The position numbers and the translations under genes were made by a program. From Saprospiraceae bacterium (GTDB taxonomy: Bacteria > Bacteroidota > Bacteroidia > Chitinophagales > Saprospiraceae): DNA of 64,000 bases. The notes under the pieces were generated by a model. The model was not told where the DNA came from. It saw only the letters and a list, made by a program, of their open reading frames with translations, and ran no database searches. Below, piece by piece: positions 6,520 to 55,901 of the stretch (the stretch's first letter is position 1; each line of letters starts with the position of its first letter). The stretch is taken from the NCBI GenBank assembly GCA_020631355.1, contig JAHDHL010000001.1:359616-423615 (forward strand). Reading direction: 5' to 3'.

Positions 6520-9500
6520 CTAGCTATTGATATAAAAGGAGGGGGATTTTCCGAATTTTTGGTTAAAAGAGCGAGAAAATGCCCTTGGAGCTTGGAACCC
6601 TACTGCAAAAGCAGTTTGGGCAACGGTTTTGAATTTCTTTTCTTCGAGATACTCACGGGCTTTTCCTAGGCGGATTTCTAAAAAGTACTGAACGGGTGTC
6701 AGACCCGTAAGTTGTTTCAACCGACGACGGAGCTGTCGTTCACTGATTGCCATATCAAAGGATAACTGTGTGATGGAGTAGGAACTATTGGAGATATGTG
6801 CCTGAAGGAATTGCTCCAAGTTTCCCAGCCATTCCATATCTTCCTCAGAAATGGATGGTATACTGATTTTTCCATTCTCTGATTTTTCCTCTTTATGGAA
6901 ATTGACCCGTTCCTGATAATTATGGAGCAAATTTTCGATTCTAACCAATAGTTCTTCTTCCTCAAAAGGTTTTAGTAAATAATCATCCACACCTATCCGA
7001 AGTGCTTTGAGTTTATCCTTGATGTCTGCCCTTGCGGTGAGCATGACCACAGGGATATGACGATAATCACCCTTTGACTTTAGCATTTCCAATAATTGGA
7101 AGCCATCCATTTCAGGCATCATGATATCACTCATGATAAGCTGTATATCCTTATTCTGCTGGAGTTCCTCCAATGCCTTTAATCCATTCTCAGCAGTTCG
7201 GACGTTATAGAATGGACTTAGGATAGTAACAATATAATCCCTTAGGGAATAGTTATCTTCAGTTACTAGGATTGTAGGGCGGTCTTCAAATTGGGAGGGT
7301 TGGAGTTGGGTAGTATCTTTCTCAACTTCTTCGGGTAAGTTTGGTGTCTTGGTAAAGAAATAATCCTTTTCTTTCTCAGACATAATTAGGGTATCCGTTT
7401 CTTTTTTCGGAATTCCTACAGTAAAAGTGGTTCCGTTTCCAAATTCACTTTCCAAGGAGATATTCCCACCCATCATTTGTACGAATTCATAAGAAAGTGC
7501 CAATCCTATTCCTGTACCGCCTTCAGTGGGGGCATCTGCCAATTGGGACTGATAAAAACGATCAAAAACATGCGCCTGGTCCTTGGGGTGAATACCTCGT
7601 CCGGTATCCTTAACCCTAATCAGAAGAATATCCCTGTCCTCGCTAATCGTTGTGGTGATGGTTCCTTTGTCAGGTGTAAATTTACAGGCATTGGAAAGTA
7701 GATTATTGATGACTACCTCAATCTTATTCCTGTCCAACATGACTTGCAAATCCTTTCTTGCCGAATATTCAAAATTGAATGTAATGCCTTTGCTCTGTGC
7801 ATGGGATTCGAAAGAATTCACCATCCTATCCATAAGAGGGAACAAGAATTCTGCTTGTTCGTGTACTTCTATTTTTCCTGAATCCATTTTGGATAAGTCC
7901 AAGATGGAACCCACCAATTTCAACAACTCCCTACCACTTCTGGATGCCTTTTTCATCAGTCCCATATTCCTTGTGTCCAGTGTACCGCTTTTCATAGCAG
8001 AACCTATTGGTCCCAATATGAGTGTGAGTGGTGTCCTTAATTCGTGGGATACGTTGGCGAAGAAACGAGATTTGACCTTATCCAGTTGTTTAAGTTCTTC
8101 GGCTTGTTCCTCGATGAGTTGCTTATCTTTTTGGATTTGTGCAGTAGCCCTGAATACTTCCTTTTCCAGATTCTCCTTGGCTTTCCTCAATCTTCTCGTA
8201 CGACTTCTGAAGAACATGAATATGGCTCCTGCAATGGAAGCAACTGAAAGGAGTAAAAACCAACTTTGGAGATAGAATGGTTTGAGTACCCTAATTTGGA
8301 TTTGCAATTCATTGGGTGACCAGCCACCACTGGCACTTTGCCCTTTTATAATCAAGGTGTGATGGCCATAAGGCAATGCACCAAATTGTAAAGCATTTTC
8401 TTTTTCATAGTTCCATTCATCATACACACCGTCTATTTTCCATGCATATAATGATTCGTACCGGTCTTCAAAGTTCAATTGGGTGAATTTGAGTTTGAAA
8501 TAACGGTCACTGGGTCGGAAAGTAATAGTTTCGGTTTCTAATACTTCTTGTATGATATTGATTTCTTTCTCAGTTTGTCCATCAAATAAAAGACATTCTG
8601 ATATATGTAATTTGTATTGTTTCTTCTCCTGATTGGTAAATTGATCGGGATGAAATGCATTGACCCCATTAAGTCCTCCGAAATAAATCGTACCATCCTC
8701 TGCCTTAAAATGTGAAATCCTATTGAATTCTTGATGGCTGATACCTTCCTTGGTTGAATACGTCCTTACATCAAAGGTCTCCTTATTAAAAGACATGATA
8801 CCATAATCACTGCTTAGCCAGAGTCGATTGTCATTATCTTCATAAACAGCATAAATGACATTATTGATTAAGCCATCATTTCTATTGAACAACCTCTTTT
8901 CCCCTGTGGAAACATTCCAAAAAAGCAATCCGGTTCGGGTACCCATCCATCTATTCCCATCTGCATCTATATGCATATGAAAGATGTTGTTTTCAGGTAG
9001 GTAGTATTCCCCCTCTTTACGTTTGGAATACTCCTCTATTATTCTAACTCGATCCTTATCAAAGAGATAAAGTCCATTTTCAGAACAGATCCAGACCAGA
9101 CCATCCTCCCTTTGAATGAATTGATAGATGATGAATTCATTTACCTCTGTGCCGATACCCATATCTTTATACAGGTAGGATGTCTGGATACTATCCTCTT
9201 GGCATGTTTTGCGAAAACCCATGAGATATGCAGACCAAATACATGCATTTTCATCTTCCCATATGGCCCAAGAAGCATCATATTGGTTATCACTGGTTGT
9301 AGGTTTTTTTATTTTTTCCAATTTGGAAAAATTGGGGGACCATTTACTTTGGAGATGATTATCCATGTGGTTAAGCCAATAATTCCCTTTACTATCCCTT
9401 AGGACAGGCCTTGCAGAATACCCCGTTAATTTACCGTTGATTAATTTCTGGTCATCCATGATTTGATAGTCGTCGGGAGCATTCTTATCGAATAGGACCA

Positions 9501-10659
9501 AGCCTCCGAACTCGAAAGAAACTACGATGGTATCGCCTTGGACGTGGATACCCCGGGCAGCATTGTTGATAGGTAATTCAACATCCTTTTTTTTAGAAAA
9601 ATAATGGGTGAAAGGATTTTTTTTGAATTCGATGATATTGAACCCGTGGAGTGAATTGAGATAAGTCTTACCTAATTCATCCGTATGGATTTTTTTGTAA
9701 TCCATACGCCCGAATAATTCAGGGCCATAATCCGCTTTGTCCAGCTCTTGGATGAGCTTACCTGATAAATCTAATATTTTCCATCCAGATTCAGTCTTAC
9801 ACCATAATTTACCGTTGGTAAACTCATGACATATCCATCCTTTAGGGAATTCTAGTATTTCTTCCACCCGTCCTGAGGGGTGATATTTCTTAAGTTTTGG
9901 AATGCGGGTATCATTACTATTATTAACATCAATCAAATACACTTCATCATTCCATTCGAATATTCTCTTACCTATATTCTCATCCTCAACAAGCTCCAAT
10001 ACACCTGACTCGGGTGTGAACTTATAGAGTTCCAGTTCAGGAGATTTAGTAATCCAAAAATTCCCTTTACTATCAATAAGCCGGATAGCATGAACGTGAT
10101 TGTTAGTGAATTCTTCTTGATGTTCAGCAGGGTAACTGAATTTTTGGATGCCCTCAGCGAAGTCAACAACAACAACCTCCTTTGAACTAGAAAAATAAAC
10201 TCGGTTCTTTATTCTGTGTGATCCAGTGTAATAATATGCTACGTCATTGAGTAACACATCCAATTGTTCTGCTAGGTGCTTTCCTAATTTTTCTTCTATG
10301 GTAGCTGTTTCCCCAGTGATGGGGTGCAGGAAAATGAGTGTATAGTGTCTGGCTGTTGGGTTTAAGGCAATAAAATATAACCAACCATCATTTGTTTGTG
10401 AAATAATGTCTACATCTAAGCGATATTCCTGATGTTTAGGTAATGGGAAAGTCTTGAATTCATATCCATCGTATCGTTGGATGTCATTTAGAGTGGCAAT
10501 CCAAAGGAAGCCTTGGTCATCCTTGGATACATCTACTACATTCCTGTGTGCCAGCCCCTCCTCCAACCCGAATTGCTGGACATGAACGGTATAGGCATCC
10601 TGCGCCTTACTTGTAAAAAGAAAGCAAGATAAGAGTGGTATTAAAAGTATTTTCCTAAT
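6520..10659 (-). CDS. hybrid two-component sensor/regulator (HTCS), AraC output
   Basis: A one-protein signalling system of about 1379 residues. Order: signal peptide, periplasmic two-component-regulator propeller starting QQFGLEEGLAHRNV, Y_Y_Y domain, one membrane segment (WFLLLSVASIAGAIFMFF), histidine kinase with H-box FFANVSHELRTPLT, HATPase with GTGIGLAL, receiver with MSDIMMPEMDG, and C-terminal AraC-type HTH (ISERQLRRRLKQLTG). The reading frame upstream of the first TTG (10566) encodes an obvious signal peptide (RKILLIPLLSCFLF) but has no ATG, GTG or TTG; a TGA bounds it, so initiation at ATT (10659) or the adjacent ATC is proposed. The RCC1 surface gene is downstream on the same strand and may be a target. 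Confidence 0.85.
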   Translation of the reverse strand: MRKILLIPLLSCFLFTSKAQDAYTVHVQQFGLEEGLAHRNVVDVSKDDQGFLWIATLNDIQRYDGYEFKTFPLPKHQEYRLDVDIISQTNDGWLYFIALNPTARHYTLIFLHPITGETATIEEKLGKHLAEQLDVLLNDVAYYYTGSHRIKNRVYFSSSKEVVVVDFAEGIQKFSYPAEHQEEFTNNHVHAIRLIDSKGNFWITKSPELELYKFTPESGVLELVEDENIGKRIFEWNDEVYLIDVNNSNDTRIPKLKKYHPSGRVEEILEFPKGWICHEFTNGKLWCKTESGWKILDLSGKLIQELDKADYGPELFGRMDYKKIHTDELGKTYLNSLHGFNIIEFKKNPFTHYFSKKKDVELPINNAARGIHVQGDTIVVSFEFGGLVLFDKNAPDDYQIMDDQKLINGKLTGYSARPVLRDSKGNYWLNHMDNHLQSKWSPNFSKLEKIKKPTTSDNQYDASWAIWEDENACIWSAYLMGFRKTCQEDSIQTSYLYKDMGIGTEVNEFIIYQFIQREDGLVWICSENGLYLFDKDRVRIIEEYSKRKEGEYYLPENNIFHMHIDADGNRWMGTRTGLLFWNVSTGEKRLFNRNDGLINNVIYAVYEDNDNRLWLSSDYGIMSFNKETFDVRTYSTKEGISHQEFNRISHFKAEDGTIYFGGLNGVNAFHPDQFTNQEKKQYKLHISECLLFDGQTEKEINIIQEVLETETITFRPSDRYFKLKFTQLNFEDRYESLYAWKIDGVYDEWNYEKENALQFGALPYGHHTLIIKGQSASGGWSPNELQIQIRVLKPFYLQSWFLLLSVASIAGAIFMFFRSRTRRLRKAKENLEKEVFRATAQIQKDKQLIEEQAEELKQLDKVKSRFFANVSHELRTPLTLILGPIGSAMKSGTLDTRNMGLMKKASRSGRELLKLVGSILDLSKMDSGKIEVHEQAEFLFPLMDRMVNSFESHAQSKGITFNFEYSARKDLQVMLDRNKIEVVINNLLSNACKFTPDKGTITTTISEDRDILLIRVKDTGRGIHPKDQAHVFDRFYQSQLADAPTEGGTGIGLALSYEFVQMMGGNISLESEFGNGTTFTVGIPKKETDTLIMSEKEKDYFFTKTPNLPEEVEKDTTQLQPSQFEDRPTILVTEDNYSLRDYIVTILSPFYNVRTAENGLKALEELQQNKDIQLIMSDIMMPEMDGFQLLEMLKSKGDYRHIPVVMLTARADIKDKLKALRIGVDDYLLKPFEEEELLVRIENLLHNYQERVNFHKEEKSENGKISIPSISEEDMEWLGNLEQFLQAHISNSSYSITQLSFDMAISERQLRRRLKQLTGLTPVQYFLEIRLGKAREYLEEKKFKTVAQTAFAVGFQAPRAFSRSFNQKFGKSPSFYINS

Positions 10660-10790
10660 GATGGATGCTCACGCTTTTAGTGAAATACAATGCAGCTGAT
10701 TTCAGAAGTTGGATTTCGATCATTTAAAGTTAGTGTTCTGCTTGGAAAAATACTACGTCTAACAATATAATTTTATTCCATTAACCCACA

Positions 10791-10840
10791 CAGCCCTCAC
10801 GACCCAAACTCCTATACTGTATCGCCTCGGCCAAATGGGG
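10791..10840 (-). pseudogene. comM 3'-end fragment (50-bp direct repeat copy)
   Basis: These 50 bp match 21632-21681, the extreme 3' end of the intact comM gene, at 49 of 50 positions in the same orientation. Translated on the minus strand the piece reads [18 protein letters not shown] and stops, mirroring the ComM C-terminus [18 protein letters not shown]. No other part of comM is present. The remaining DNA between the HTCS gene and 10946 shows nothing else I can name. It may be an attachment-site-like duplicate or a recombination scar. Confidence 0.8.
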
Positions 10841-10946
10841 GATTCAGGATAATATTTGTATAAGGTAGAACCTGATGAAAATATTCAAGTACCCGACAAA
10901 GGATGTAAATCCTTACACCCTTTATCGGATATAATATCCAAAAAAC

Positions 10947-13900
10947 TTAGTGTTTCAGGATTTTCTCAATTCCTCTTTGACCATTATCTCGTTCAACCTG
11001 TAAAAAATATAGGCCGTTTTGAATATGGGAGGTAGCACCTATAATGATTCTATTCTCTCCAATCCCGATATTATTCGCTTGTGTATGTAATGTACGTCCC
11101 GCAACATCGAGTACACTTATCGTCACTTGGCCACTTTCGTTTGCATCCAATATTACAGAAAAAGAATCTGTAAACGGATTCGGACTTACCACCAAATGAG
11201 CCAGACTGGATGTTTCATTATATGTACTGGTCGTGTTTTCATCATTGAATCTACGATAATACGGAATGGCATTACCTTCCTGTGCGATTCCCTCTACGAT
11301 AGAAAAGCCGAAAGTACATCCGACATAACTCGTAAAGCCCTCTCCATCATTGCGAATCCCATTACCAAAATCCATCTCAGGTCCACCTTCATTCCTAGCC
11401 CATACAACATGCAATTCAGGAGTCAATTCAGCTAAGAATATATCTTGCTCACCCTTATTCATGATATGGTAATCCTTAAAATGAATATCCCCTGTAAATG
11501 AACCTACGATTTGGATATGACCACTATTACCTGACAATGTGATATCCTTTGGGTGGAAATAACTGTCATCGGATGGATTACTACTTGCCATTCTCAACTC
11601 ATTCAATAGCATTCCATCACTATCATATTTCAGCATCAATAACTGGTCATCTTCCCTGACTGCTATAAAAACATGACCATTCGCATCTACGGCCAGAGCC
11701 TCTCCCGAGCTATTATTACCCTCCTCATGCTTTACAGCCCAGACAACATTCCCCGTATTGGCATCCATTCTAAGCAGGAATAATCTTTGTCCCTCCTCGG
11801 ATGAAAGATTCACATTATCAAATGTGACCGTGTCCTCAAAATAACCCGTTACATAGATGATTCCATTCTGGGATATACCAACCGATAATGCCTCGTCAAT
11901 TCCCAAACCACCAAATCCTTTGACCCATTGTATGTTTCCATCAGGATCATATTTAGCTACGAAAGCATTCTTTTTATCGCCTTCATAGGGAAGTATGATG
12001 CCGTCAAAATTTGCTTCCTCCCTGTAGTAACCTACGATATAAATACTACCTGTCTCATCCAGAACAACATCCACACCAGCATCCCATTTATGGCTACCGG
12101 CCCTCCTTGCCCATAATTCGTTCCCATCTGCGTCATTCTTCACAATGAATATATCCTGAAACCCATAAGAATCAAAGGTAGTCGTTTCGAATTCAACCGT
12201 ATTAGATATCATACCCGTAACAATGCTATTACCATACTCATCCGTATCTATGGACATTCCTTTATTCTTCCCATTGTCACCATAGTGTTTCCTCCAGACA
12301 CTATTACCTGCCTCGACATAACGTGTGATGGCTATCCTTGAATCATCCTCGCTTAATTTGACGACACCAGCTGTGAATGAGTGTCCTAGTCGGTTGGAAC
12401 TGGATCTTTCTTCGCAGGGAGGGCCATCGTCGCCATCGTCGCCGTCATCACCCTCACCACCGTCACTACCGTTATCACCGTTATCACCATTGACACCCCC
12501 TCCATCCATACCGCCAATACCTGCTTCACCTTTTATGCCATCACCTGGATTCCCCCCTGTTCCTTTTGCTCCCAGTGACCCACCATCACCACCTGTTCCA
12601 CCATCTTCTCCACAATCAACTGCATCTTGTCCATCACCACCGTCACCGCCTGTTCCACCGTCACCGCCTTTACCGCCATGACCGCCGTAGCCACTACCTC
12701 CATCAACACCAGTCATGCCATCACCTCCCTTGCCCTTCCCACCTGTTCCTCCTTTACCTCCTGCGCCACCTTTGCCTCCCTCATCTCCGCTTTCCCCAGG
12801 AGCAACAGCATCATCACCTTTACAACCTGTTCCACCATTACCACCCTTACCGCCATCGCCGCCTAAAGCGAATCCTCCAGTGCCACTTTGACCAACTGCT
12901 CCCTCGGCATCACCTCCTTTCCCGCCTAATCCACCTTTTCCACCAGCTCCCTCTATTTCGTTTATACCTGGCCAATCCACACAATCAGCCCCATTACCTC
13001 CTTCTCCACCATTGCCACCTAAAGCAGATGCTCCAAAAACACCATCACCAAATTTAGCATCTCCACCTTCTCCACCTCCGCCGCCATCACCACCATTACC
13101 AACTCCATCCCCTCCTTTTCCACCTAACCCACCTAACACAGTATCACCACTTGAAGCCACTATATCCTCACCTCCACCACCTTCTCCACCAGGAGCTCCA
13201 GCTGCCCCTTCACTACCGATAATCAAATCCAATAATACACTCCCACCATTACCGCCGTCACCAGCTCTCAGATAGGTGCCACTATTGCCGCCTTTGCCGC
13301 CATTTCCTCCGATATAGGTATTTGTTTCTTGGTTGATATATTTTTCTGCAATGGTTACAATAGAGCCACCATGCCCCCCATCCATACCTTGTTCGCCATC
13401 CTTTCCATCTCCTACATGCAATTCTCCATCAAGTTGGACTACCTTACCCATCAAGATGATACTGCCTCCATTCTTACCAGAAAAATCCTTGGTGCCTCCT
13501 GCTGTCAAAGAACCTTTGATAATAATCTTCCCTGAAGATTTGATGATGATATTACCCATGTTTGAATTCGTTGTCTTTTTAGCGTTGGGATTTCCATCAT
13601 ATGATAATGAGCCATTGATGTAAACATCCTCTTTGCTGTATAGCATCAGATTATCTGAAAATTTCATTTGGGTTCCGGATTTGACGCTGAACCCTTTTCC
13701 TTTCTCCTGTTCGTATAGTTCTCCTTGATCGAGACCCATTATTTTTAATCCCTCATCATTTTCCAGTGCCTTTTTCTCCAACTCATGTACCTGATTCAAA
13801 ACATCGTGTAAGTGATTTGGAATTAGTTCATATATCTCAGATTTCGTAAGTGTTGTTTCCGATTCGAAATCAGTATCAGATGGTTGTAATGCTAGTTGTG

Positions 13901-13967
13901 CACTCAAAGAATCCGGTGTACATATCATAAGAAATATGACCGAGATGATAAAAAATATCTTTTTCAT
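10947..13967 (-). CDS. giant glycine-rich surface protein with SBBP-like repeats and T9SS domain
   Basis: A 1006-residue exported protein. Signal peptide at residues 1-23; a beta-helix-like segment (~70-190, repeated GNIIIKSSGKIIIKGSL type strands); a very glycine-rich low-complexity region (~190-525) made of GGxGGxGG/GGDGGxGG units resembling collagen-like or PE-PGRS sequences; then repeated SBBP/propeller-like units with GNS-VTG and DGN-W motifs (~545-900); and a T9SS C-terminal domain (VVSPNPFTDSFSV ... GLYFLQVERDNGQRGIEKIL). Likely an extracellular, possibly sheath- or adhesion-forming protein. Strong purine-rich coding bias makes several antisense frames open; those are shadows. Confidence 0.8.
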   Translation of the reverse strand: MKKIFFIISVIFLMICTPDSLSAQLALQPSDTDFESETTLTKSEIYELIPNHLHDVLNQVHELEKKALENDEGLKIMGLDQGELYEQEKGKGFSVKSGTQMKFSDNLMLYSKEDVYINGSLSYDGNPNAKKTTNSNMGNIIIKSSGKIIIKGSLTAGGTKDFSGKNGGSIILMGKVVQLDGELHVGDGKDGEQGMDGGHGGSIVTIAEKYINQETNTYIGGNGGKGGNSGTYLRAGDGGNGGSVLLDLIIGSEGAAGAPGGEGGGGEDIVASSGDTVLGGLGGKGGDGVGNGGDGGGGGEGGDAKFGDGVFGASALGGNGGEGGNGADCVDWPGINEIEGAGGKGGLGGKGGDAEGAVGQSGTGGFALGGDGGKGGNGGTGCKGDDAVAPGESGDEGGKGGAGGKGGTGGKGKGGDGMTGVDGGSGYGGHGGKGGDGGTGGDGGDGQDAVDCGEDGGTGGDGGSLGAKGTGGNPGDGIKGEAGIGGMDGGGVNGDNGDNGSDGGEGDDGDDGDDGPPCEERSSSNRLGHSFTAGVVKLSEDDSRIAITRYVEAGNSVWRKHYGDNGKNKGMSIDTDEYGNSIVTGMISNTVEFETTTFDSYGFQDIFIVKNDADGNELWARRAGSHKWDAGVDVVLDETGSIYIVGYYREEANFDGIILPYEGDKKNAFVAKYDPDGNIQWVKGFGGLGIDEALSVGISQNGIIYVTGYFEDTVTFDNVNLSSEEGQRLFLLRMDANTGNVVWAVKHEEGNNSSGEALAVDANGHVFIAVREDDQLLMLKYDSDGMLLNELRMASSNPSDDSYFHPKDITLSGNSGHIQIVGSFTGDIHFKDYHIMNKGEQDIFLAELTPELHVVWARNEGGPEMDFGNGIRNDGEGFTSYVGCTFGFSIVEGIAQEGNAIPYYRRFNDENTTSTYNETSSLAHLVVSPNPFTDSFSVILDANESGQVTISVLDVAGRTLHTQANNIGIGENRIIIGATSHIQNGLYFLQVERDNGQRGIEKILKH

Positions 13968-14369
13968 GATTTATAATTTTGATTCATATTATTTTTAGAA
14001 AAGAGGGTTGTTTCCGGGCTGTCCTAATTTCTATGGAGGGGATAATCCGAAGTAGTCCCCATATGTTTTAATCCAATGGTAATCCTTGTGAATACGATAC
14101 ATCATCATAGATTTTGTGTGTTTGGAAAAGACCCTATTGATGGATGGAGATATAGCACTCCCATCCCACGTCAATACATGAAGCAGTCTGTTGTCTCGAA
14201 GTCTTCTCGATTTAATTATTGAGATTCACTATGCACAGGACGCCCTTTGTTTGGGTTAGAGAGATGCAGAACGCCCTGTGTTAGAATAGTCATGATGAAG
14301 TATTACAGCATCTCTGGATTCAATACTTCCGGGTGTTCACTTCTTTTGAAACTGTATCTGAATATGCTA
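13968..14369. other. intergenic region without recognisable gene
   Basis: About 400 bp between the glycine-rich gene and a small ORF. A short imperfect direct repeat (ACGCCCT, near 14241 and 14270) is the only structure noticed. No ORF with coding character, tRNA or clear terminator was found. Confidence 0.4.
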
Positions 14370-14492
14370 TTATTCTTTCCCTTTATCGCAGTTACACTGA
14401 TTAATGGTTCTCTCTGAACCACCTGCCACTATACCTCCTGCAAATAACCCAAGAGCAGAACCCAGAAAGAATGAAATTATGATGAGTATCAT
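14370..14492 (-). CDS. small single-span membrane protein (40 aa)
   Basis: An ATG at 14492 opens 40 codons ending at TAA. The product has one hydrophobic segment (IIISFFLGSALGLFAGGIVA, residues ~4-23) and a short polar tail with two cysteines (INQCNCDKGKE). This is the composition of small phage/plasmid-type membrane peptides. It sits alone between two large surface genes. Real-gene status is uncertain because nothing but composition supports it. Confidence 0.4.
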   Translation of the reverse strand: MILIIISFFLGSALGLFAGGIVAGGSERTINQCNCDKGKE

Positions 14493-14589
14493 AGTGTCTG
14501 TTTTTAGTGTATAATCATTTATTTTCCCAAGGGATAGACCCTACATTGATATCCGAATTACAACGTAGAAATCTATCCAACATTGAAAA

Positions 14590-17500
14590 TCATGGTTTCA
14601 TCAGCATGAATCTGTGTGCTTTAAGACGATTCCTTTTTCTGAAGCTGATGAAATATATTCCCTCGGGCAAATCCCTTCTTATTCCAATTCCAAATTGATT
14701 CTTTCCTTTTATTGCATGTCTTTCTTCCGTCATTACAACCCGACCATTGATATCAAGAATCGAAATGCGTAAGGGACCTGTTGATTCTGTATGATAATCC
14801 ACATTCAGCGTGTTGTTGAAAGGAGTGATTGTCGATGGGTATATATTGCTAAAATCTCCCTCCTTTACATTTTCATTTGAATCAACAAATATCCTATTCT
14901 TCATTTCATATGTAGCCGTACAACCATCGCCCCTGAATGCAATGACACTATAGTATCCGCTCGTCTCTGGAATAATTAATGAATCTATTTCTCCAGTCGA
15001 CCATAGATAATTAAAGTTATCAAGCTCCACAGAATTGGAATTCGGATGAATGGAAGCTGTTAAAGCACCTCCTGCATCTTGAGTAATATGAACTTCAAAA
15101 TCCTTATCTATTGAATCCAGGGTAATCATGTCCTGCCAAATCGTATCAATGGTCCCCGTACCCGATTCTGCCTTAACAACGATTGAATAATCCCCTGCTT
15201 CATCCACTTCAATTGTTTGGGCATTCTCACTTATTATCTCATCAGTATCCGTTCCTAGTCTTTTCCATTCGTATTCATAAACTAAATTCGAATCCACCTC
15301 ACTCAAATGCTGCACAGTTATTTGTTGTTTATTGCAGGAAATTGACGAAGTGGTCACCGCAAATTGATATGTCGAATCAGGGAGATAGATATCCAAGGCT
15401 TCGCCCTTTATGCGAATCGTATCCCCATAATTATTTACCATGAGGATATCATGGGGGCTGATTGTTGCGTAGCGGCCTTTTTCACCACCCGGAAGCAGGG
15501 CTTCCTCACCTATCGCAAAAGAGAAACTCATATAATTATCCGTTCCTAGCGTCCGATTCAACTGATTGGTCCCCGTGTAGCTAATCGCTGAAGCCTGAAG
15601 ACGGGATAACATTCCCAAAGGAGGATTTTGAATATGCATATAACGTGAATCCGGGCTCGCTAACAATGCTTCAATATTGATCGGATTGGGATTCCCATCT
15701 ACTACAAGACTTGGAATATCATATTCTAGTATAAAAGCTAAGCCATAAAAAACGACATCCATGTTATCCTTGTCCTTAAGGGATACGGAAATCATCAATT
15801 CGTTGGTTACCGGATTAACACCCATTAATTCAGGTACTAGGATATAGGAGGCATTCACATCGGCTATGATGGGAGTATAAGAAAAGTCCGATTTGAACTT
15901 TCCTATATTCATTTCAATGATTTCCCTATCCTCGTCATCAATAATACCATCTCCGTTACAATCCGCATTTGCTAAATCTACCGTGTATAATGAATCATAA
16001 TCCGACCCGAACTTTTCGGAAAAATTAATGATGTGTGGTTGGAACAAGGACCCTTGATGATCCCTTTCCGGAGATATCTCTCCTTGGAGTAAACCCCAGA
16101 ATAAGAGATCGACATGATTAACGATTCCATCCTCATTGGTGTCTCCCGGCCAAACACAGTGGTCTCCCCGTTTTATTGTAATCGTATCTGTTATCGTAAC
16201 ATTACAATCCGTAACTATTTCCACAACCACAAAGGCATGATTCGTATCCACTTCACAGGAAGTTGAATTACCTATTGTATCGCCTAATGTGTCTTTCCAA
16301 GTGTATACAGAAAATACATCCTCATTTAATTCAATAATCGTACTTGAGGCTCCACAGATTCCTATGGTATCAGGTATTGATTCCTTAATTTCATCATGGG
16401 AGGGAGGAATATGAATCGTATTCCTTTTAATACCCATTTCGCAATTATCATTTTTACTAAGCAGGGTTATCACATATTCTCCGGATTCCCCAAAAGGATA
16501 GCTAATACTCAGATGATTCGTATCTGAATTTTCAAAAATAATTTCATTATTCTTTTCAATGTAGAATTTCGTATATGTTGGTGAATGCGAGCGATTCTCG
16601 AATGTGGAGGTATCTCTGGAACAATGAATTTCCTTATGAAAAAATGTGAGATTAGGCACATGATAAACTCCCAGCCATTCCGTAGTCCCTACCCATATAT
16701 TACCACTTGAATCTTGATTTATTGCCTTGACCTGATTTTCTGATGACCCATCCGGTAGTGATATGGCTCGGTGATTCCCTGTAATAGGGTCATACCTGGC
16801 CATTCCCATGGGAGCTCCTATCCAGATGAATCCATCTCTATCCGTAAAGATTTCATTGATTGTAGAGTAACCGACTGAAATGTCACTAGGAGAGTCCATT
16901 AAGTTAGATAAAGATAATTTAAACAGACCATTCCCATTACCAGTCCCTAAGTACAGACTATCTCCTGCAATAGCCAGAGCAGTGATCTTCAAATCACTAT
17001 TAATGGGTTCTGCTGTTATATTCTGAGCAGTCAAATCGATATGGTAAAGTCCTAATGGTGTTCCTATATAGGCAGTATCCTCATGGAGTACAATGGCATT
17101 AACCTTAGCGGGGACCATAATCTCAGTCGTATCCACTATTGTAAGAGGAGGATTACTCGTAGAGAGATTATACAATATTACCTTATTGTTATCCGTACCA
17201 ATTATCAAGGTATCATTCCCGTAGGATTCCAAAACTGAAATCGATAATGATTCTAGAGCTCTTATTGTTTCCTCCTCATTTATTATCGTGAGACTGTTAT
17301 GACTTCCCTCGTGTATGGTCCCATCCTCAACAATGATGGCATTAATATGTTTTGAAGAAGCCTCAACCGTTGTTATAACATAATCGTTTTCCGGCCCTTT
17401 CACTATTGTACTCAAACTATCGCCTTGCGACCCTCCGTGTTGTATATTCCCATGATAGTACAATACGCTATAGTTCGCATAATCCACAATCTTCCACTCC

Positions 17501-19959
17501 TCATTACAAGACTCTCTCTCATTCTCCAAAGTATCAGGAAATACTACGAATTGTTCCTGAGTGAAACTACCGCAACTGCTTACCATTGCTAACTGAACTG
17601 CATAAAGTGTAACTGCGTCATTCTCATCATACTGATGGAATATTTCGCTGGATTGAATATTTGTTAACGTATGGCCATCTCCAAATACTATGGAATATTC
17701 CACTAATGGATTAAAATCCTGAATATGGAAATTGGCAGACCTATAATCCGTTTCCTCTACGGTGAAATGTACAGATGTATCTGCTACGAATACTTGTTTT
17801 GATGAGGTATCATAACATCCATCAGATGTATAAACGGTAGATATCACTTCATATACTCCCACAGTATCATAGGTATATAATGGAACTATCCCACTATTGA
17901 TGTCATTTATTTCAATCGTATCAATCCTATCATTCGGGCCAATGATTGTCCATGTGAAGTTATTGGCATTATCATAAGCTAAAAGATAGTCGCTGACATC
18001 TACGGTTTCACCTATGCATATGGTAGAATCATCATCCAACTCTACTGTCGCCCCGCAATCTTGAGTAGTCCCGTAAAAAACAATATCAGAAACTGACGCA
18101 TTCGCTGAACTTACCACTTTAAGGTAGAGATTATCCCCGGCCCCAAAAATATCCGGAACAGTCCATGTTATAGGTTCTGATGAATAACGCGAATAAGGAA
18201 CCAGGGATTCAATCATTTCCCATGAAGAAGAATCCTTACTAAAAAAAATATCAACAGAATCAATATCCATACTTGCAATGGATATGCTTATATCATTATT
18301 AGCGTATATCGCCGTAGGTAAGTTTGCTGTATTTATGGTAATACTCTGATTCACGGGGCACGCTCCCACAACGCCTACGGAATCCCACATAGAACAGACT
18401 ATTTCATTTATCCCTGAGCTCGGATATAGATACTCAGCTGCATGGATAGAAGCAATCCTAGCATCCTTATAATCAGAGTACGGTGTAAGGTAATTCGTTA
18501 AGGAGTAGAAGCAGATTCTTGAAGCTTTCTCTATGGAGATTTCTTGGGAAAGCATATAGAACCAACGGTTTTGAACATCACAATTGTCATGCACTCCTCC
18601 ATGATCTTCCAAACCCAGATAATAACCAGTGGCCGGGTCATCGTAAATCATATTATTATCAAAGTTCCTTATACCTACTCCATTCGTAAAATCTTCTCCT
18701 ATTCTCCAGATATCATCACTTTCACCAAGTATATACCTTTCGACCATTACAGCCAAAATATCTGCAAATGATTCATTTAAGGCTCCTGACTCACCCTCGG
18801 GAATTAGATTGGCTGTGGACTGTATAATTGCATGGGCAATTTCATGGGCTACAATATCAAGACTCACCCAAGGAGAAACACCATCTGCACCATCACCATA
18901 AAGAAAGAAAGTACCATTATAGAAAGCATTATTCATGTTATTCCCATAATGAACCACGCTTAATATTTTATCCAATTCCCATGAGACATTCAATAGAAAA
19001 TCAGAGTTAATGCTCCTTATATATTCCAATGTCTTTTCTGTAGCCCAATGCACATTTATAGCAGCAGGATCTTCATACCCCCAATTCACATCGTGATACT
19101 GGAAAGGGATTCCTGTAGGACTCGGCAAATAATCCAGGGGATGGGATTGGGGTGAAAATGGAAAGGGAGGAAAAGGCAGTGGGTTTCCGTTTCTTGTTTC
19201 TATACCACATGGACTACCACTAGATATATCCACACTATCAACATTAAGGTAATAGGTATTATTTACTGCATCCAAGGTTATGGTTTGCATACCATTGTAT
19301 CTGGTCATTCCTGTACCCTCGACTTCAACATGTTCGATGAGTTCTATTTCCTTTATTACTTCACCTGTATGAGCATCAATGAAAATATTGACGCGTCCCA
19401 TAGGCTCTAGTGAGAAGACATCAAATACATAAACCAGTCGGGCCGTTCCAGCATTAAAATCTGGAGAATAAATATATAATTCACCCTCAGGGAAAAACGT
19501 ACTATTCTTATTTTTCTTGATATCTTTTAATATTTCCTCAAAATCATCGGAATGCCAAGCATAGCATGTTGCATTTATTTTATCCAAGGCTAAATTCCTT
19601 GCCCTATTCTTTGTTATGCTTGGACTTGTTCCAATGGATAGGTTTTGAATAATATTGCCATTTGCTGAATGAATAAAACCATTCTTCGAATGTGTTATGA
19701 ATTTCGAACCCCATACTTCCACACCTTCTTTTTTTTGGATATAGTCTATGTGGATTTGACTAGGAATTCCTTTTCTAGAAATTTCGATTAATTCATCACT
19801 TTCACACAATGCTAATTTTTCTTTAACCAATAGAGTTGAGTTTCTTATTCGATTATTATCGAAGAAATACCACTTATTTCGATTCTCCTTAACGGGAGAC
19901 TGAGCAAACAGCCCAACGAGTAAAAAGAACAGCAACTGAGTCAAAATTAATTTTTTCAT
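14590..19959 (-). CDS. secreted M4 (thermolysin-type) metallopeptidase, multidomain, T9SS
   Basis: About 1789 residues from the ATG at 19959 (a TTG at 19977 is less likely because the signal peptide MKKLILTQLLFFLLVGLFAQ begins at the ATG). A propeptide is followed by an M4 catalytic domain: zinc motif HEIAH at ~372-376 and the third ligand Glu in GALNESFAD near 396. Downstream are PKD/Ig-like modules, a two-component-regulator-type propeller segment (~830-1090), a dockerin-type-I-like segment (GDTNEDGIVNHVDL ... DCNGDGIIDDEDRE), further Ig-like modules and a T9SS sorting domain (PSTITPFNNTLNV ... RFMLMKP). Expected to be an extracellular or surface protease. Divergent from the helical gene at 20140. 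Confidence 0.88.
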   Translation of the reverse strand: MKKLILTQLLFFLLVGLFAQSPVKENRNKWYFFDNNRIRNSTLLVKEKLALCESDELIEISRKGIPSQIHIDYIQKKEGVEVWGSKFITHSKNGFIHSANGNIIQNLSIGTSPSITKNRARNLALDKINATCYAWHSDDFEEILKDIKKNKNSTFFPEGELYIYSPDFNAGTARLVYVFDVFSLEPMGRVNIFIDAHTGEVIKEIELIEHVEVEGTGMTRYNGMQTITLDAVNNTYYLNVDSVDISSGSPCGIETRNGNPLPFPPFPFSPQSHPLDYLPSPTGIPFQYHDVNWGYEDPAAINVHWATEKTLEYIRSINSDFLLNVSWELDKILSVVHYGNNMNNAFYNGTFFLYGDGADGVSPWVSLDIVAHEIAHAIIQSTANLIPEGESGALNESFADILAVMVERYILGESDDIWRIGEDFTNGVGIRNFDNNMIYDDPATGYYLGLEDHGGVHDNCDVQNRWFYMLSQEISIEKASRICFYSLTNYLTPYSDYKDARIASIHAAEYLYPSSGINEIVCSMWDSVGVVGACPVNQSITINTANLPTAIYANNDISISIASMDIDSVDIFFSKDSSSWEMIESLVPYSRYSSEPITWTVPDIFGAGDNLYLKVVSSANASVSDIVFYGTTQDCGATVELDDDSTICIGETVDVSDYLLAYDNANNFTWTIIGPNDRIDTIEINDINSGIVPLYTYDTVGVYEVISTVYTSDGCYDTSSKQVFVADTSVHFTVEETDYRSANFHIQDFNPLVEYSIVFGDGHTLTNIQSSEIFHQYDENDAVTLYAVQLAMVSSCGSFTQEQFVVFPDTLENERESCNEEWKIVDYANYSVLYYHGNIQHGGSQGDSLSTIVKGPENDYVITTVEASSKHINAIIVEDGTIHEGSHNSLTIINEEETIRALESLSISVLESYGNDTLIIGTDNNKVILYNLSTSNPPLTIVDTTEIMVPAKVNAIVLHEDTAYIGTPLGLYHIDLTAQNITAEPINSDLKITALAIAGDSLYLGTGNGNGLFKLSLSNLMDSPSDISVGYSTINEIFTDRDGFIWIGAPMGMARYDPITGNHRAISLPDGSSENQVKAINQDSSGNIWVGTTEWLGVYHVPNLTFFHKEIHCSRDTSTFENRSHSPTYTKFYIEKNNEIIFENSDTNHLSISYPFGESGEYVITLLSKNDNCEMGIKRNTIHIPPSHDEIKESIPDTIGICGASSTIIELNEDVFSVYTWKDTLGDTIGNSTSCEVDTNHAFVVVEIVTDCNVTITDTITIKRGDHCVWPGDTNEDGIVNHVDLLFWGLLQGEISPERDHQGSLFQPHIINFSEKFGSDYDSLYTVDLANADCNGDGIIDDEDREIIEMNIGKFKSDFSYTPIIADVNASYILVPELMGVNPVTNELMISVSLKDKDNMDVVFYGLAFILEYDIPSLVVDGNPNPINIEALLASPDSRYMHIQNPPLGMLSRLQASAISYTGTNQLNRTLGTDNYMSFSFAIGEEALLPGGEKGRYATISPHDILMVNNYGDTIRIKGEALDIYLPDSTYQFAVTTSSISCNKQQITVQHLSEVDSNLVYEYEWKRLGTDTDEIISENAQTIEVDEAGDYSIVVKAESGTGTIDTIWQDMITLDSIDKDFEVHITQDAGGALTASIHPNSNSVELDNFNYLWSTGEIDSLIIPETSGYYSVIAFRGDGCTATYEMKNRIFVDSNENVKEGDFSNIYPSTITPFNNTLNVDYHTESTGPLRISILDINGRVVMTEERHAIKGKNQFGIGIRRDLPEGIYFISFRKRNRLKAHRFMLMKP

Positions 19960-20139
19960 ATTTCGGATTTTTTTCAATGTTCACAGTTGCTAATATATGC
20001 CTGATTCCACATAATTTATTCTACAAAAAACCTATATTTACAATACAAAATATACATTAAATTACCATAAATACATTATAATCAATACTTTACAAAACCA
20101 ATACACAACATATAAATATTACTTATAAATAGAGAACAC

Positions 20140-21573
20140 ATGAAAACAAATAAATTGATTCGAATCCTTAGGCTACTAACTATTTCAGAAATAAAAGACT
20201 TTAGAGCGTTCGTTGCTTCCCCGTACTTTAATAAGAATAAAAAGTGTATCGAACTTCTGGACTTACTAATCCCCTACAGCCCCTCATTTTCTGACGAAGA
20301 ATTAGACCAGTCCAATTTTGCAGATAGCATCTATACTAAAAAGAGGTCATTAGAAACATTAAAGAGTGTATTATTACGACTATTAGAACAATTCCTAATT
20401 CATGAAAAATTCAAGCACAATTATGAAATACAGACTTATTTTTTATTGGAAGAATTAAGAGAAAGGCGAGAGGACCAACATTATGATTTAACTTATAAAA
20501 AATCAAAAAAAATCACAACTCAAAAGAACCGAAACAATTCGATTTATTATGGAGAATTCCTAATAGAACTCAGTCAATTAGAAATGTCTTATCAAAAAAT
20601 GACAAGTAGAAAAACGAATGCAGAACAATTGAATAAAGTAATCATTGCTTTCGATAAATACTGCCTTTCCAATCATCTTTGGCTGGACAATGTTGTATTA
20701 AACCTAAGAGATTTCGGAGGAGAAGAAATGAATAAAATAACCAATAAGCTAGTCGAACAATCACAAGTATTCATTGATTTCGCAAAACTATCCCCCTATA
20801 AAAATGAAGCACTCATTAAAATGCGACTATCCTTGAATCACTTACTAAAGAATGGAACAGAAGATAATTTCAACCTCTTACTTAATAACTTAAAAAATAA
20901 TCATACTTCTATCTCCTACGAGGACAAAGTGCATTTCAATAAATTCATTGCTAACTACTGTATCAGAAGAATAATAAAAGGTGATAATTCATATTATAAG
21001 AAACTACTTGAATTCTACATGCTCGCTATTGATATTGGAACATTAATAGAAGGAAAATACCTGCACCCTAAGCGGCTAAGCAATATCATTACGACATCCG
21101 TCAAAGCCAATGAAATTGAGTTAGCTCATGAACTACTAAAAAAATACAATAAATATATTGCCCCCGAACACCAAGATACAACCAGAACCTATTGTACAGG
21201 CTATCTTTACTACCAAGAAATGGACTACACCAATGCACTCGACCACCTAAATGAGTGTATAAAGCAAAAGAGCGCTTTTGGGATGGCAGCACAAGCCATT
21301 ACCTATAAGATATATTACGAAATCAATGAATCCTGGGCATTCAGAGCACCTATAAAATCTTTTATGACCAAACTATTAAGACATAGTAAAAAACAACCTG
21401 AGTATATCCTAGATGGTTATCGTAATTTCTTTAAAATCCTCAAGCAGATTTACAAGAAGAAACATGATCCTAATTATAGTAAAAGCAAGAAGGAACTCAT
21501 TCTGAGTATAGAAAAAAAAGAACATCTTTCTGATAAGGAATGGTTATTAAAGAAGATTCAGGAACTCGGATAA
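20140..21573 (+). CDS. helical TPR-like protein, paralogue of the gene at 1656
   Basis: A 477-residue soluble, helical protein sharing its whole length with the product of 1656-3092 (for example SPYFNKNKKCIELLDLL, SIYTKKRSLETLK, FLLEELRERRED and WLLKKIQELG). A TPR-like block lies near residues 345-400. Leader DNA is extremely AT-rich. It is divergent from the M4 protease gene and ends 48 bp before the 3' end of comM, convergent with it. Function unknown; two divergent copies within 20 kb suggest a lineage-specific expanded family. Confidence 0.75.
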   Translation: MKTNKLIRILRLLTISEIKDFRAFVASPYFNKNKKCIELLDLLIPYSPSFSDEELDQSNFADSIYTKKRSLETLKSVLLRLLEQFLIHEKFKHNYEIQTYFLLEELRERREDQHYDLTYKKSKKITTQKNRNNSIYYGEFLIELSQLEMSYQKMTSRKTNAEQLNKVIIAFDKYCLSNHLWLDNVVLNLRDFGGEEMNKITNKLVEQSQVFIDFAKLSPYKNEALIKMRLSLNHLLKNGTEDNFNLLLNNLKNNHTSISYEDKVHFNKFIANYCIRRIIKGDNSYYKKLLEFYMLAIDIGTLIEGKYLHPKRLSNIITTSVKANEIELAHELLKKYNKYIAPEHQDTTRTYCTGYLYYQEMDYTNALDHLNECIKQKSAFGMAAQAITYKIYYEINESWAFRAPIKSFMTKLLRHSKKQPEYILDGYRNFFKILKQIYKKKHDPNYSKSKKELILSIEKKEHLSDKEWLLKKIQELG

Positions 21574-21621
21574 ATAATACATTCATATAGGTCATAACCT
21601 AGAGGATGGTTGGATAAAATC

Positions 21622-23178
21622 TCACCCAGCCCAGCCCTCACGATCCAAACTCCTATACTGTATCGCCTCGGCCAAATGGGGTAACTCAATGCGCTTACTC
21701 CCATCCAAATCCGCAGCTGTTCTTGCCACCTTGAGTATTCTATCATATGCTCTCGCAGACAACTGTAACCTCTCCATGGCTTTCTTGAGTAATGTTCTTC
21801 CATCATCATCCAATTGACAGACCTCCCGAACCATATTACTCGGCATCTGCGCATTGCAAAAAACATCCTTTTTCTCCTTGAACCTTTCTTCTTGGATGGC
21901 CCGAGCTCGGATAACCCTCATTGTGATATCCGCACTGGTTTCGGATGTCCTTTTCGTTGAAGATAACTCATCATAGGAAACAGGAGTCACTTCCACATGC
22001 AAATCAATCCGATCCAATAAGGGCCCAGATATCTTACTCAAGTATCGACCAACGATTCCCGGGGCACAAACACAATCTTTTTCAGGATGATTGTAGTAAC
22101 CACAGGGACAAGGATTCATAGAAGCCACCAACATGAAACTGGCCGGATAGTCAACTGAAATCCTAGCCCTTGAAATCGTTACTTTCCGTTCTTCCATGGG
22201 TTGCCTCAACACCTCAAGTACCGTGCGTTTGAATTCCGGAAGTTCATCTAGGAATAATACACCATTATGAGCGAGGGAAATCTCTCCGGGTTGTGGATGT
22301 GAGCCTCCCCCGACCAAAGCTACATCACTCACTGTATGATGAGGCGACCTAAACGGTCTTGAGGATACCAAGGACGCCTCAGAGGGTAGAATACCCGCCA
22401 CGGAATGAATCTTGGTTGTATCCAACGCCTCATACAGGTTCAATGGAGGAAGAATAGTAGGTAAACGCCTTGCCAACATAGTCTTTCCGGCTCCGGGCGG
22501 ACCAATCAGGATTACATTATGTCCTCCTGCAGCAGACAGTTCCAAGGCTCTCTTGATATTTTCCTGTCCCTTTACATCAGCAAAATCCAATTCGTACTCT
22601 CCTTGGTCATGATGGAATATCGCTCTGGTATCTACTCGTGTTGGTTCCAAGTCCGTTTCCTCATTCAAAAAACTGACGACCTCTTTCAGGCTAGCTACAC
22701 CATACACATCAATATCGTTTACTATCGCTGCTTCCTTGGCATTCTCAACAGGTAGGATGATGCCCTTGAAGCCTTCTTTCCGAGCTTGTATCGCAATAGG
22801 TAAGGCTCCTTTGATTGGGCGAAGTTTCCCATCCAAGGATAATTCTCCCATAAATATGTAATCTTCGATAATTGCCGGAGGAATCTTGCCAAACCCGGAG
22901 AGGATACCAATGGCAATGGGTAAATCGTATGAGGATCCTTGTTTCGGCAAATTGGCTGGAGCCAGATTAATCACGATTCTTAATCGGGGTAAACGCCAAC
23001 CAGAGTTCTTCAGGGCAGCACTGATTCTTTGGAATCCCTCCCTTACTGCACTATCAGGCAACCCCACTAAATTGTATCCGGGCTTTCCCGCTGACACGGG
23101 GCCTCCAATGTGAACTTCAGTTGTTATGGTTGTTGCATCCACGCCGTGGACTGCACTTGCATATGTCTTTACATACAT
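21622..23178 (-). CDS. comM: Mg-chelatase-like AAA+ ATPase, ComM/YifB family
   Basis: The product is 518 residues from the ATG at 23178, giving the canonical start [15 protein letters not shown]; a longer frame to 23253 is unlikely. ComM is a hexameric helicase that aids branch migration during natural transformation. Visible elements: N-terminal Lon-like domain ([11 protein letters not shown]), Walker [12 protein letters not shown], Walker [11 protein letters not shown], a Cys cluster [15 protein letters not shown], and the C-terminal Mg_chelatase domain with [16 protein letters not shown]. The last 50 bp are duplicated at 10791-10840, so the 3' end has been involved in a rearrangement or insertion. 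Confidence 0.93.
21632..21681 (-). repeat. 50-bp direct repeat (comM 3' end, intact-gene copy)
   Basis: This segment is the 3' end of comM and is repeated at 10791-10840 with a single mismatch and the same orientation. The pair flanks 10.8 kb containing the glycine-rich protein, the M4 protease, the small ORF and one helical paralogue. Confidence 0.85.
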
Positions 23179-23279: not shown

Positions 23280-24227
23280 TTAGTTTGCTAACTGGAATTT
23301 GATCGGAAGCGTAAATTGTACCCTTACCGGGTTATTTCTTTGCTTTCCTGGTGTCCATTTAGGCATCTTCTTCACTACTTTCAAGGCTTCGTCTCCACAT
23401 CCTCCTCCTGGATCCCTAAGTACTACTTTCTTTTGATCCGGATCGAACTTAATGGTTCCATCCTTCTCAACTACGAAACGTATTACTGCGGTACCTTCGA
23501 TTCCGTTCTCACGAGCGATTGCAGGATACTTGATATTCTTATTGATGAAAGAAATGATTTTTTCATCAGAACACTTCTTACGTTCATCCTTATCTGCAAT
23601 GCCCTCGCAACCTGGGAAGTGAGGCATATATTCAACGATCTTGAATATCTCATCATCCGGCGGCGGCGGTGGTGGCGGTGGTGGCGGTGGTGGCGGTGGA
23701 GGTGGCGGCTTAGGCTTCTCCTTTTTCTTAGGTTTAGGTGGTGGTGGAGGTTTAATCTCTTCCTTTTGATCTACCAAATCCTGACTCTCAAGCTCTGGTT
23801 CTTCAATCTCTACCTCATCCGGAACCTCCTCAATTACCGGAGGTGGTGGCGGTGGCGGAGGTGGTGGTGGTTCCGCAGTACGTGGAGTTTCCACTTCTAC
23901 GTCCTCATCTATCCATTCCTCGTCCAATGTAGCTCCTCCACCTTGTGAAAAGATGGTCCAGCTAAAGGCAAGAATTGCAATCAAAACGGCAGCGACAGCT
24001 CCGATACCCAAGTGGGTCGAGCTTCTCTTAAACACGTCCACCTCAGGGTACTTATTACGTCCAAGCAAGGACGATGCAGTACTCCCACTGTACTTTTCCG
24101 TTAGGCTGTTATCCCCACTCTTACTAGACATCATTGACCTTATCACGATGGGCACGATAAAACATGCGGCCAATATCAATCCAATCAAAGTCAGAACCAC
24201 AGGCAACGTCAACGCTAATTCATCCAT
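23280..24227 (-). CDS. tonB: TonB-family energy transducer
   Basis: A 315-residue inner-membrane protein. It has a first hydrophobic segment at ~8-30, a second at ~73-92, acidic/proline-rich spacer with long PPPPPP runs (~120-195), and a C-terminal TonB domain (KYPAIARENGIEGTAVIRFVV ... VRVQFTLPIKF). It couples the proton-motive force to TonB-dependent receptors such as that at 26283. The two-span N-terminus differs from the single anchor of classical TonB. Its start overlaps the end of the VanZ-like gene by 13 bp, suggesting coupled translation in a gcvH-vanZ-tonB operon. Confidence 0.85.
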   Translation of the reverse strand: MDELALTLPVVLTLIGLILAACFIVPIVIRSMMSSKSGDNSLTEKYSGSTASSLLGRNKYPEVDVFKRSSTHLGIGAVAAVLIAILAFSWTIFSQGGGATLDEEWIDEDVEVETPRTAEPPPPPPPPPPPVIEEVPDEVEIEEPELESQDLVDQKEEIKPPPPPKPKKKEKPKPPPPPPPPPPPPPPPPPDDEIFKIVEYMPHFPGCEGIADKDERKKCSDEKIISFINKNIKYPAIARENGIEGTAVIRFVVEKDGTIKFDPDQKKVVLRDPGGGCGDEALKVVKKMPKWTPGKQRNNPVRVQFTLPIKFQLAN

Positions 24228-49667: not shown

Positions 49668-50042
49668 AGGAGTCCAAATGGAAACCAACCTTATTATGGA
49701 TTATAATTTCTGCTTGAAAAGGATGTATTGCCAAGAGCAAGTAGCTCCCTCTCTCATCTTCTTCCTGTACTTTTCAGCGCTGGTTAGGAACTTGTGTCAA
49801 TTTTTGGAGTTTTCATTGGACTAGAACGTCTGGAGAAGATTAAAACAAGAAAGAAGTTAGCCGTGTAATCATGTACCATATTCAGTAATTAGAAACCTCT
49901 CGCCCTAATCTCGGGATAGGGAATTTTAATTTTTCCGCCAAAGGCGGAAAAAAACATTTTTCGTAGCACTCCCCATCCTTCAAGTCATTGCAGACACCGC
50001 TCCGCAGGTGCCATGCCAATGCCTTTTTGGATGACTCGGCAA
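49668..50042. other. intergenic region with a perfect A/T-flanked inverted repeat
   Basis: No gene seen. A perfect 9-bp inverted repeat with 3-nt loop (TTTTCCGCC AAA GGCGGAAAA, 49931-49951) lies 120 bp past the variable-protein-1 stop. On either strand its 3' arm is A-rich rather than followed by T, so it is not a classical terminator. A second short hairpin (CACC/GGTG) is near 49995-50010. Confidence 0.5.
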
Positions 50043-50058
50043 GCTCAGATTAAATGCC
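50043..50058 (+). repeat. VR1 3'-flank box (degenerate copy)
   Basis: GCTCAGATTAAATGCC matches the 16-nt box beside VR2 (55902-55917) at 14 of 16 positions. The homology between the two VR flanks continues through about 51 bp (50030-50080) with five mismatches, so both target genes share a 3' element beyond their stop codons. Confidence 0.7.
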
Positions 50059-50070
50059 TTTGGCTTAACC

Positions 50071-54101: not shown

Positions 54102-54175
54102 TTTCTGTTAGTTTTTAAGAATTGTAGAATCTTCGAATCATAATGACCTACCAATACCACAGTTAATTTTCAATG

Positions 54176-54189
54176 GTCCATTTATGGAC
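54176..54189. repeat. short palindrome downstream of TR
   Basis: GTCCATTTATGGAC is a 14-bp palindrome (5-bp stem, 4-nt loop) about 48 bp past the TR 3' end and 75 bp before the caspase gene. Confidence 0.4.
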
Positions 54190-54221
54190 AGAGAATACAG
54201 ATTGGTCAGTTATAGCCATCC

Positions 54222-54237
54222 GGCATTCTATCTGAGC
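54222..54237 (-). repeat. 16-nt box in TR 3' flank, inverted relative to VR2 flank
   Basis: On the plus strand GGCATTCTATCTGAGC, exactly the reverse complement of GCTCAGATAGAATGCC at 55902-55917 next to VR2. It abuts the TR. Confidence 0.85.
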
Positions 54238-54363
54238 TGGGACAGGACAAGGCGGAAGCCTATATTGTTGTTCCTGTGAGACGGGTGATTGTAGTTGCGA
54301 TATGCTACACGGCAGTTCTGCGAGTTGTTGATCCAGCTACCGCCACGTATCACGCGAGAAGCG
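54237..54363 (-). other. DGR template repeat (TR)
   Basis: A 127-bp copy of the C-terminal coding part of the variable proteins, not attached to a full gene. In coding frame it reads [20 protein letters not shown] and on to GFRLVLSQ, with eight AAC/AAT codons at exactly the residues that vary in VR1 and VR2; AAY codons mutated at A reach many amino acids without making stops. It begins about 24 bp after the reverse-transcriptase stop. An 82-codon ORF across it is not a gene. Confidence 0.93.
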
Positions 54364-54387
54364 TCTCTACCTGAATTCCCTTTATTT

Positions 54388-55872: not shown

Positions 55873-55901
55873 CTGCCGCCTTTCTACAGCGGACTCGGCA
55901 G

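Follow-up and report, generated by a model that had tools for sequence, protein, structure and literature searches.

How did the 3' end of one gene come to stand on both sides of a block of surface-protein genes? The question is raised by a stretch of 64,000 nucleotides (the window) from a Saprospiraceae bacterium (assembly GCA_020631355.1, contig JAHDHL010000001.1, positions 359,616 to 423,615; here genome G000, contig C134). The gene is comM, encoding a Mg-chelatase-like/competence helicase and lying on the minus strand at 21622–23178, intact as judged from its open reading frame (ORF) and translation. Fifty bases at its true 3' end (21632–21681, minus strand) recur at 10791–10840 in the same orientation, with 49/50 identities and a spacing of 10,841; self-BLAST of the window widens the pair to 10784–10840 and 21624–21681 (94.8% of 58, E 1.5e-17). 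The second copy is part of a displaced comM 3' end (10781–10840, minus strand) of 19 codons, residues 501–519, which is in frame with comM and closed by its own TAA stop at 10781–10783 (residue numbers follow protein P0001, which has one residue more than the ATG protein). An earlier note on this DNA, made from the sequence alone, had reported such a 49/50 repeat bracketing 10.8 kb and had taken one copy for the true comM terminus, and both statements hold. Self-BLAST and translation show that the duplication is limited to the 3' end and that the gene itself is whole, matching its full-length counterparts in 40 relatives mostly at 62–84% identity, with two lower. A genome-wide search of G000 with a 120-base query (E 0.001) found no third copy of the comM end.

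The relatives offer an arrangement from which the present one could have arisen. Beyond the fragment lies a hybrid sensor kinase with an AraC-type helix-turn-helix (HTH) domain (6520–10566, minus strand; Pfam), the probable former downstream neighbour of comM. On a contig of the same genus, G005:C120, comM codons 341–519 and the stop are followed by the start of a decayed sensor-kinase gene, a relative of this neighbour, and the fragment/kinase region of the window is collinear with that contig over ~590 bp including the comM tail (62%, E 1e-37). The fragment occupies the place of the relative's comM end, and the intact gene stands 10.8 kb away from it. On this alignment the 10.8-kb segment looks inserted between comM and its former neighbour, with outer limits at 10841 and 21621 as set by the repeats. 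The search compared 20 kb to the left of comM with ten genomes (G001–G008, G013, G137) and scored at most 30 of 43 to 112 candidates per genome, so that more joined sites may exist; among the candidates scored, one contig, G005:C120, carries both a comM tail and a sensor-kinase-like gene start. The kind of site that the earlier note had proposed to look for, uninterrupted between comM and the neighbour, thus has a candidate, on a contig in which comM is cut at codon 341 and whose assembly looks mixed. The whole segment in conserved order, which that note had named as the observation that would speak against gain, was met in no relative: none of the examined comM loci has the three segment genes behind it (E 1e-8; many loci with 1.5 kb downstream only). 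On the upstream side of comM, a gene for a TonB-C protein (23280–24227, minus strand) is common to G005, G003 and G001; in G008 it stands several kb further upstream.

Several features of the relatives weigh against this picture. As contig G005:C120 ends within comM, at codon 341, the joined site is seen on its 3' side only, and an upstream break in that gene is possible. The kinase gene on this contig is decayed, with a DDE transposase ORF next to it. Moreover, assembly G005 (L121, L122, L149, L204) seems to combine two lineages. It holds a second, complete comM with other genes behind, which we take to be DUF4835, coaBC, rpoZ and bamD, and an ABC transporter in duplicate, for which each of the six other genomes searched gave a single close match; of the two, the C136 copy is 87% like the transporter of G000 and 79% like the second copy. 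Directly behind comM in G003, a genome of the same genus, stands an M4 protease of 1581 aa that has a sorting tail of the type IX secretion system (T9SS) and is 29% identical to the window protease described below; no comM fragment was seen on that contig. The expectation of different cargo at the same point in related genomes is met here in an ambiguous form, for this protease is either such cargo or the sign of an older gene at that place. A hybrid sensor kinase also stands directly behind the intact comM of Portibacter marinus (L106), inside a fragment-bounded span; it shares 26% identity with the kinase next to the window fragment.

A repeat of 50–58 bases can mislead short-read assembly, and the whole arrangement might be an artefact of that kind. 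This is scarcely credible: the two copies have different flanks and different tails, and the order of fragment and sensor kinase is matched independently in G005:C120. The two copies themselves are alike to an unusual degree. The nearest genome's comM matches the 50-base repeat at 45/50 positions (median 36/50 over 109 rows, which include the window and duplicate loci), and the comM end on G005:C120 matches window comM at 45/50 and the window fragment at 44/50. By these values the two window copies are each other's closest relatives within the compared set. Their mismatches are unevenly spread, with one in the 50-base core and five in the last 10 of 60 bases (P 0.0003, the test having been picked post hoc), a pattern to be expected of an att-like core.

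Remnants of comM ends recur in related bacteria, which makes comM look like a place where moving DNA lands. In 81 loci, comprising the window and the best 80 of 573, partial copies of a gene's own 3' end lie downstream of 5/73 comM genes and of 1/463 other genes (Fisher P 0.0002; 0.0014 without the window). The test took ORFs of 300–1200 aa with at least 1 kb downstream and counted same-strand copies of the 3' end within 12 kb; for two L046 genes with tandem paralogues in the control (copies >60% of the gene), these did not count as partial copies. The comM cases are L048, L061, L073, L106 and the window, and the lone other gene is in L088; L079 carries comM copies that stop short of the gene end. 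These counts suggest that comM is specially affected by 3'-end duplication. Among 92 comM loci, a broader sample that includes some fetched because of their fragments, 11 have copies of comM DNA downstream, which without exception lie on the same strand and begin no earlier than codon 334; on the upstream side there are one clear case (G020, codons 1–20) and two short, weak hits (E 3e-4). The earlier note had read a 3'-end duplication as the trace of integration or of gain by recombination. The joined site and the comM enrichment support that reading; the cargo, which it treats as foreign DNA, is not clearly foreign, as discussed below.

Across the family, a second comM 3' fragment was found in 13/298 genomes (G000, G013, G020, G024, G043, G045, G102, G117, G129, G137, G190, G282, G291). 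The search listed part of its matches, and genomes with at least two matches were searched again. Dropped from this count were comM pieces at contig ends (G042, G105, G151, G249, G253), a weak match of 43% identity in G016, two genomes with two long comM ORFs each (G184, G217) and, as noise, other weak second matches. In G190 the fragment is accompanied by two long comM ORFs, and G045 has fragments only, with no intact comM seen. In G020, two identical fragments flank a scaffold gap and may be one. At class level, 15/395 genomes gave two matches to the ComM end (E 1e-4; rows uninspected).

The reading that we favour, with about half of our confidence, is that the segment was inserted at the comM 3' end by recombination addressed to that end, through a recombinase since lost or supplied in trans. 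The incoming DNA would have brought its own comM 3' terminus, which became the end of the intact gene, and the resident terminus would have moved to the opposite border of the segment, where the sensor kinase, its earlier neighbour, is still next to it. The crossover, presumably by a site-specific recombinase, would have fallen near codons 501–503, and the resulting structure would resemble a cis-mobilizable island. No integrase had been noticed in the segment before, and the profile searches agree with this. The three large segment ORFs have no Pfam match to a recombinase, small ORFs (<=56 aa) lying outside that scan, and a genome-wide profile search gave no PF00589 or PF07508 match inside the segment. 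Elsewhere in G000 there are three tyrosine-recombinase (PF00589) matches and one weak serine-recombinase (PF07508) match, the latter on another contig.

The comM fragments are of two kinds. Those of the first start at codon ~354–359, at an NPCPCG motif (G013, G024, G026, G045 with two in a row, G129 and G137). In G024, comM is broken at codon ~356–360 with a large serine recombinase at the junction, and 3/14 viral-contig loci with pieces of comM carry a similar recombinase; recombinase-bearing elements thus strike comM in this group. A small HTH gene abuts the codon-~355 fragment in 5/6 genomes. There are six such genes (L113, L116, L117, L129 and L133, the last being the G045 locus with two such units in a row), and 5/6 match HTH_3 in Pfam; the sixth, at the second copy of G045, has no HTH_3 match. 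No other members of this fragment-abutting family were found in the loci searched, including the window and G137 (ORFs of at least 70 aa, E 0.001).

The window fragment might then descend from an element of this first kind, a large-serine-recombinase insertion at codon ~355 that has since lost, by deletion, its recombinase together with ~145 codons from the start of the displaced 3' part. The first-kind fragments themselves, and comM pieces with internal deletions or gaps in G024, L061 and L079, lend this some colour. It is nevertheless quite improbable, since the window core is 49/50 like the live end, and hence not old, and since the small HTH genes that abut such fragments were not found in the window. 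Among genes directly behind comM or its fragments, 23S_rRNA_IVP matches occur in L073 (11733–12116, a cargo ORF) and L116 (1313–1687), an IS200-like transposase in L113 (5744–6295), and a small gene with no Pfam match in L061 (1859–2416).

The second kind of fragment is shorter, with starts near codons 434, 450, 467 and 491 and a group at 501–503 in four genomes (window, L073, G020, G282). When intact end and fragment of one genome, of either kind, are compared, the differences in several genomes are mostly silent; the ratios of synonymous to nonsynonymous codons are 17:0 in G291, 6:0 in G282, 10:1 in G020, 24:2 in G026, 25:2 in G129, 27:4 in P. marinus and 20:3 in G043, with 66:25 in G013 and 59:22 in G137. 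By this excess of silent change, the two ends in most pairs worked as genes in separate lineages before they met, one of them having come by transfer. There is one stop inside each of the fragments of G137 and G190, and the G117 and G190 fragments look decayed. In 6/7 pairs tested, the intact end and the fragment resemble each other more closely than either resembles any of ~104 other comM genes, which points to near relatives as donors. The exception is G043, whose intact end scores 0.810 against L096 and 0.797 against its own fragment; the nearest relatives of this gene differ along its length, L011 for the N-terminal part and L096 for the intact end, which hints at a foreign origin of the latter. 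Naming the foreign end by nearest relatives gave no decision in 6/7 pairs.

These pairs also bear on a serious rival to site-directed insertion, namely homology-facilitated illegitimate recombination during transformation, in which donor DNA pairs by homology with the 3' part of comM and its other end, bearing downstream genes of the donor, is joined illegitimately inside the recipient's comM end. Missing recombinases and scattered fragment starts argue for this alternative. It needs no recombinase, which fits cargo such as the six ORFs of L106, G291 and G043, none of which has a recombinase match in Pfam; it accounts for variable starts; and the mutual closeness of all pairs except that of G043 would follow from a near-relative donor. 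The same model was proposed for type VI secretion system (T6SS) arrays of Vibrio cholerae (PMC5361080). Comparable end capture on both sides is suggested by remnants of the comM N-terminal part that lie upstream of the intact gene in G001 and G020 (L125, 17628–17738; L123, 3190–3255), the G001 remnant being 84% and the intact G001 comM 71% like window comM. On its own, illegitimate recombination leaves the comM excess over other genes, the 501–503 group of starts and the uneven window mismatches unexplained, and we consider it possible, if rather unlikely.

It is on these same three observations, the enrichment, the 501–503 group and the uneven mismatches, that the preference for site-directed recombination at the comM end rests. 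The following points tell against it. No recombinase acting at codons 501–503 is shown, and the large segment ORFs, as described, contain none that was recognized. The varied starts at about 434, 450, 467 and 491 are not explained by one att site, and the 501–503 group may partly reflect the start of a conserved ComM stretch. Fragment and intact comM lie on different contigs in G013, G117, G137 and G282. Finally, the silent-site argument fails in the window (1:3), G117 (6:9) and G190 (4:10), the window pair being too similar for the test and thus uninformative.

The cargo is as the earlier note had listed it. The segment encodes a glycine-rich secreted protein with a T9SS C-terminal sorting domain (10947–13967, minus strand), an M4 (thermolysin-like) metalloprotease with a T9SS sorting domain (14590–19977, minus strand), both identified from their ORFs with Pfam/NCBIfam scans, and, divergent to the protease, a 477-aa protein of a large paralogue family (20140–21573, plus strand) that is helical according to a low-confidence model. 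Small ORFs of <=56 aa lie between the large genes, one of 40 aa (14370–14492) having a hydrophobic stretch. Composition in 1-kb steps gave no clear break at the segment borders. On G005:C136 an M4 protease and a helical protein again form a divergent pair, beside another gene, the helical protein at 49% identity and the protease at 43% over the 437 aa present before the contig end; at the matching place G000 has neither. Because this pair sits at another locus in a close relative, the cargo is not clearly foreign. The segment puts a common local gene pair at a new address, as seen from the C136 pair and from the frequency of T9SS neighbours in the helical family.

A local origin has therefore to be weighed, in which a tandem duplication or translocation within the genome joined surface genes to a copy of the comM end with no outside DNA involved. 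The lineage-type cargo, the protease/helical pair elsewhere in a close relative and the near identity of the two window ends would all suit it. We hold it to be very improbable, given that paired ends in several other genomes differ mostly at silent sites, unlike a decaying local copy, and that sixteen other helical-family stretches, one overlapping the window, lack such a flanking repeat.

The helical family of ~477 aa has 19 matches in G000, two of them in the window (20140–21573 and 1656–3092). Both are without an NCBIfam match, and the one member scanned with Pfam had no match above the cut-off. A two-sequence model reached a mean pLDDT of 60.6, a quality that we considered too low for a fold search. 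In G000, 12/18 members with listed neighbours stand divergent to a gene whose product has a T9SS sorting domain, as do 3/4 of those tested in relatives. The idea that modules with helical proteins enter gene ends generally was considered and rejected: L150 and L154–L168 (the latter being 15 G000 stretches with family members, of which L154 overlaps the window) have no flanking end-repeat of the comM type. Direct repeats >800 bases apart occur among these stretches in L155 and L157 only, apart from the window itself.

An insertion that spares comM and leaves a displaced terminus would admit cargo without loss of comM function, and comM, which mobile elements favour as a target, is reported to help recombine transformed DNA (PMC10293859). 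Displaced termini could then be counted as footprints of past gains, and the arrangement suggests one route by which surface-protein genes may change between close relatives in this group. A bolder extension, which we regard as improbable, is that the comM 3' end serves as a docking address in Saprospirales, at which recombinase-free cargo units, each with the working terminus of a near relative, are added by a trans factor at codons 501–503, T9SS surface genes spreading in this way. Since each unit would bring a working terminus, comM would stay intact and old termini would pile up downstream.

Elsewhere in the window, at 50033–56664, lies a diversity-generating retroelement by layout. It comprises a reverse transcriptase (54388–55368), an HRDC protein (55340–55813), two FGE-sulfatase-type proteins (55930–56664 and 50071–50787) and a template-like repeat (54237–54363) that matches both FGE-sulfatase-type genes at 86–91%. 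A large protein with LRR, Roc-COR and caspase-like domains (50784–54101) is encoded between the retroelement parts.

Several known systems resemble the comM segment in part. Among the ssrA genomic islands of Dehalococcoides, 15 without integration modules are described as 'cis-mobilizable elements' (PMC3146451). These islands also place cargo behind a single-copy gene and are bounded by direct repeats of the gene's 3' end, whereas here the target is a protein gene and the fragment length varies between genomes. The segment shares with cis-mobilizable islands the target-gene 3'-end repeats at both borders and the want of a recognized recombinase, small ORFs (<=56 aa) being outside the scan; a recombinase-bearing sister island for codons 501–503 was not found. 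In V. cholerae T6SS clusters, where effectors are displaced sequentially (PMC5361080), cargo is likewise added at a conserved gene and remnants of displaced genes are left; those remnants are the effector cluster's own genes, whereas comM is unrelated to the window cargo.

Closer to the target gene itself, 12.4% of predicted site-specific large serine recombinases target homologues of a magnesium chelatase gene, which we read as comM (PMC10083194), and phage WO sr1WO targets the magnesium chelatase gene, with XRE-type HTH genes at its 3' end (PMC9203015). The G024 element, breaking comM at codon ~356–360, shares the target gene with such recombinases, and the small HTH genes at the codon-~355 fragment ends of Saprospiraceae genomes recall sr1WO. 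The window is unlike these elements in that comM is intact with its last 19 codons duplicated, the fragment starts at codon 501 and not at ~355, no recombinase was recognized in the segment and the recombinase and HTH gene of that family were not found. The transposons Tn6022 and Tsy target comM through TnsF, at the Walker B region, and in Tsy comM pieces flank a recombinase, an HTH gene and cargo (PMC10293859). The gene addressed is thus the same as in Tn6022 and Tsy; unlike in those cases, window comM is uncut at Walker B and duplicated at its 3' end only, and the segment, which has no PF00589 match, holds no recognized transposition genes (no search by name was made for Tns proteins and TnsF). 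The literature search found nothing on comM 3'-end islands in Bacteroidota, though it did bring up Acinetobacter papers on comM islands. As an integration target comM is already in print, and the present case differs from those in joining cargo without a recognized recombinase to a 19-codon fragment and an intact comM.

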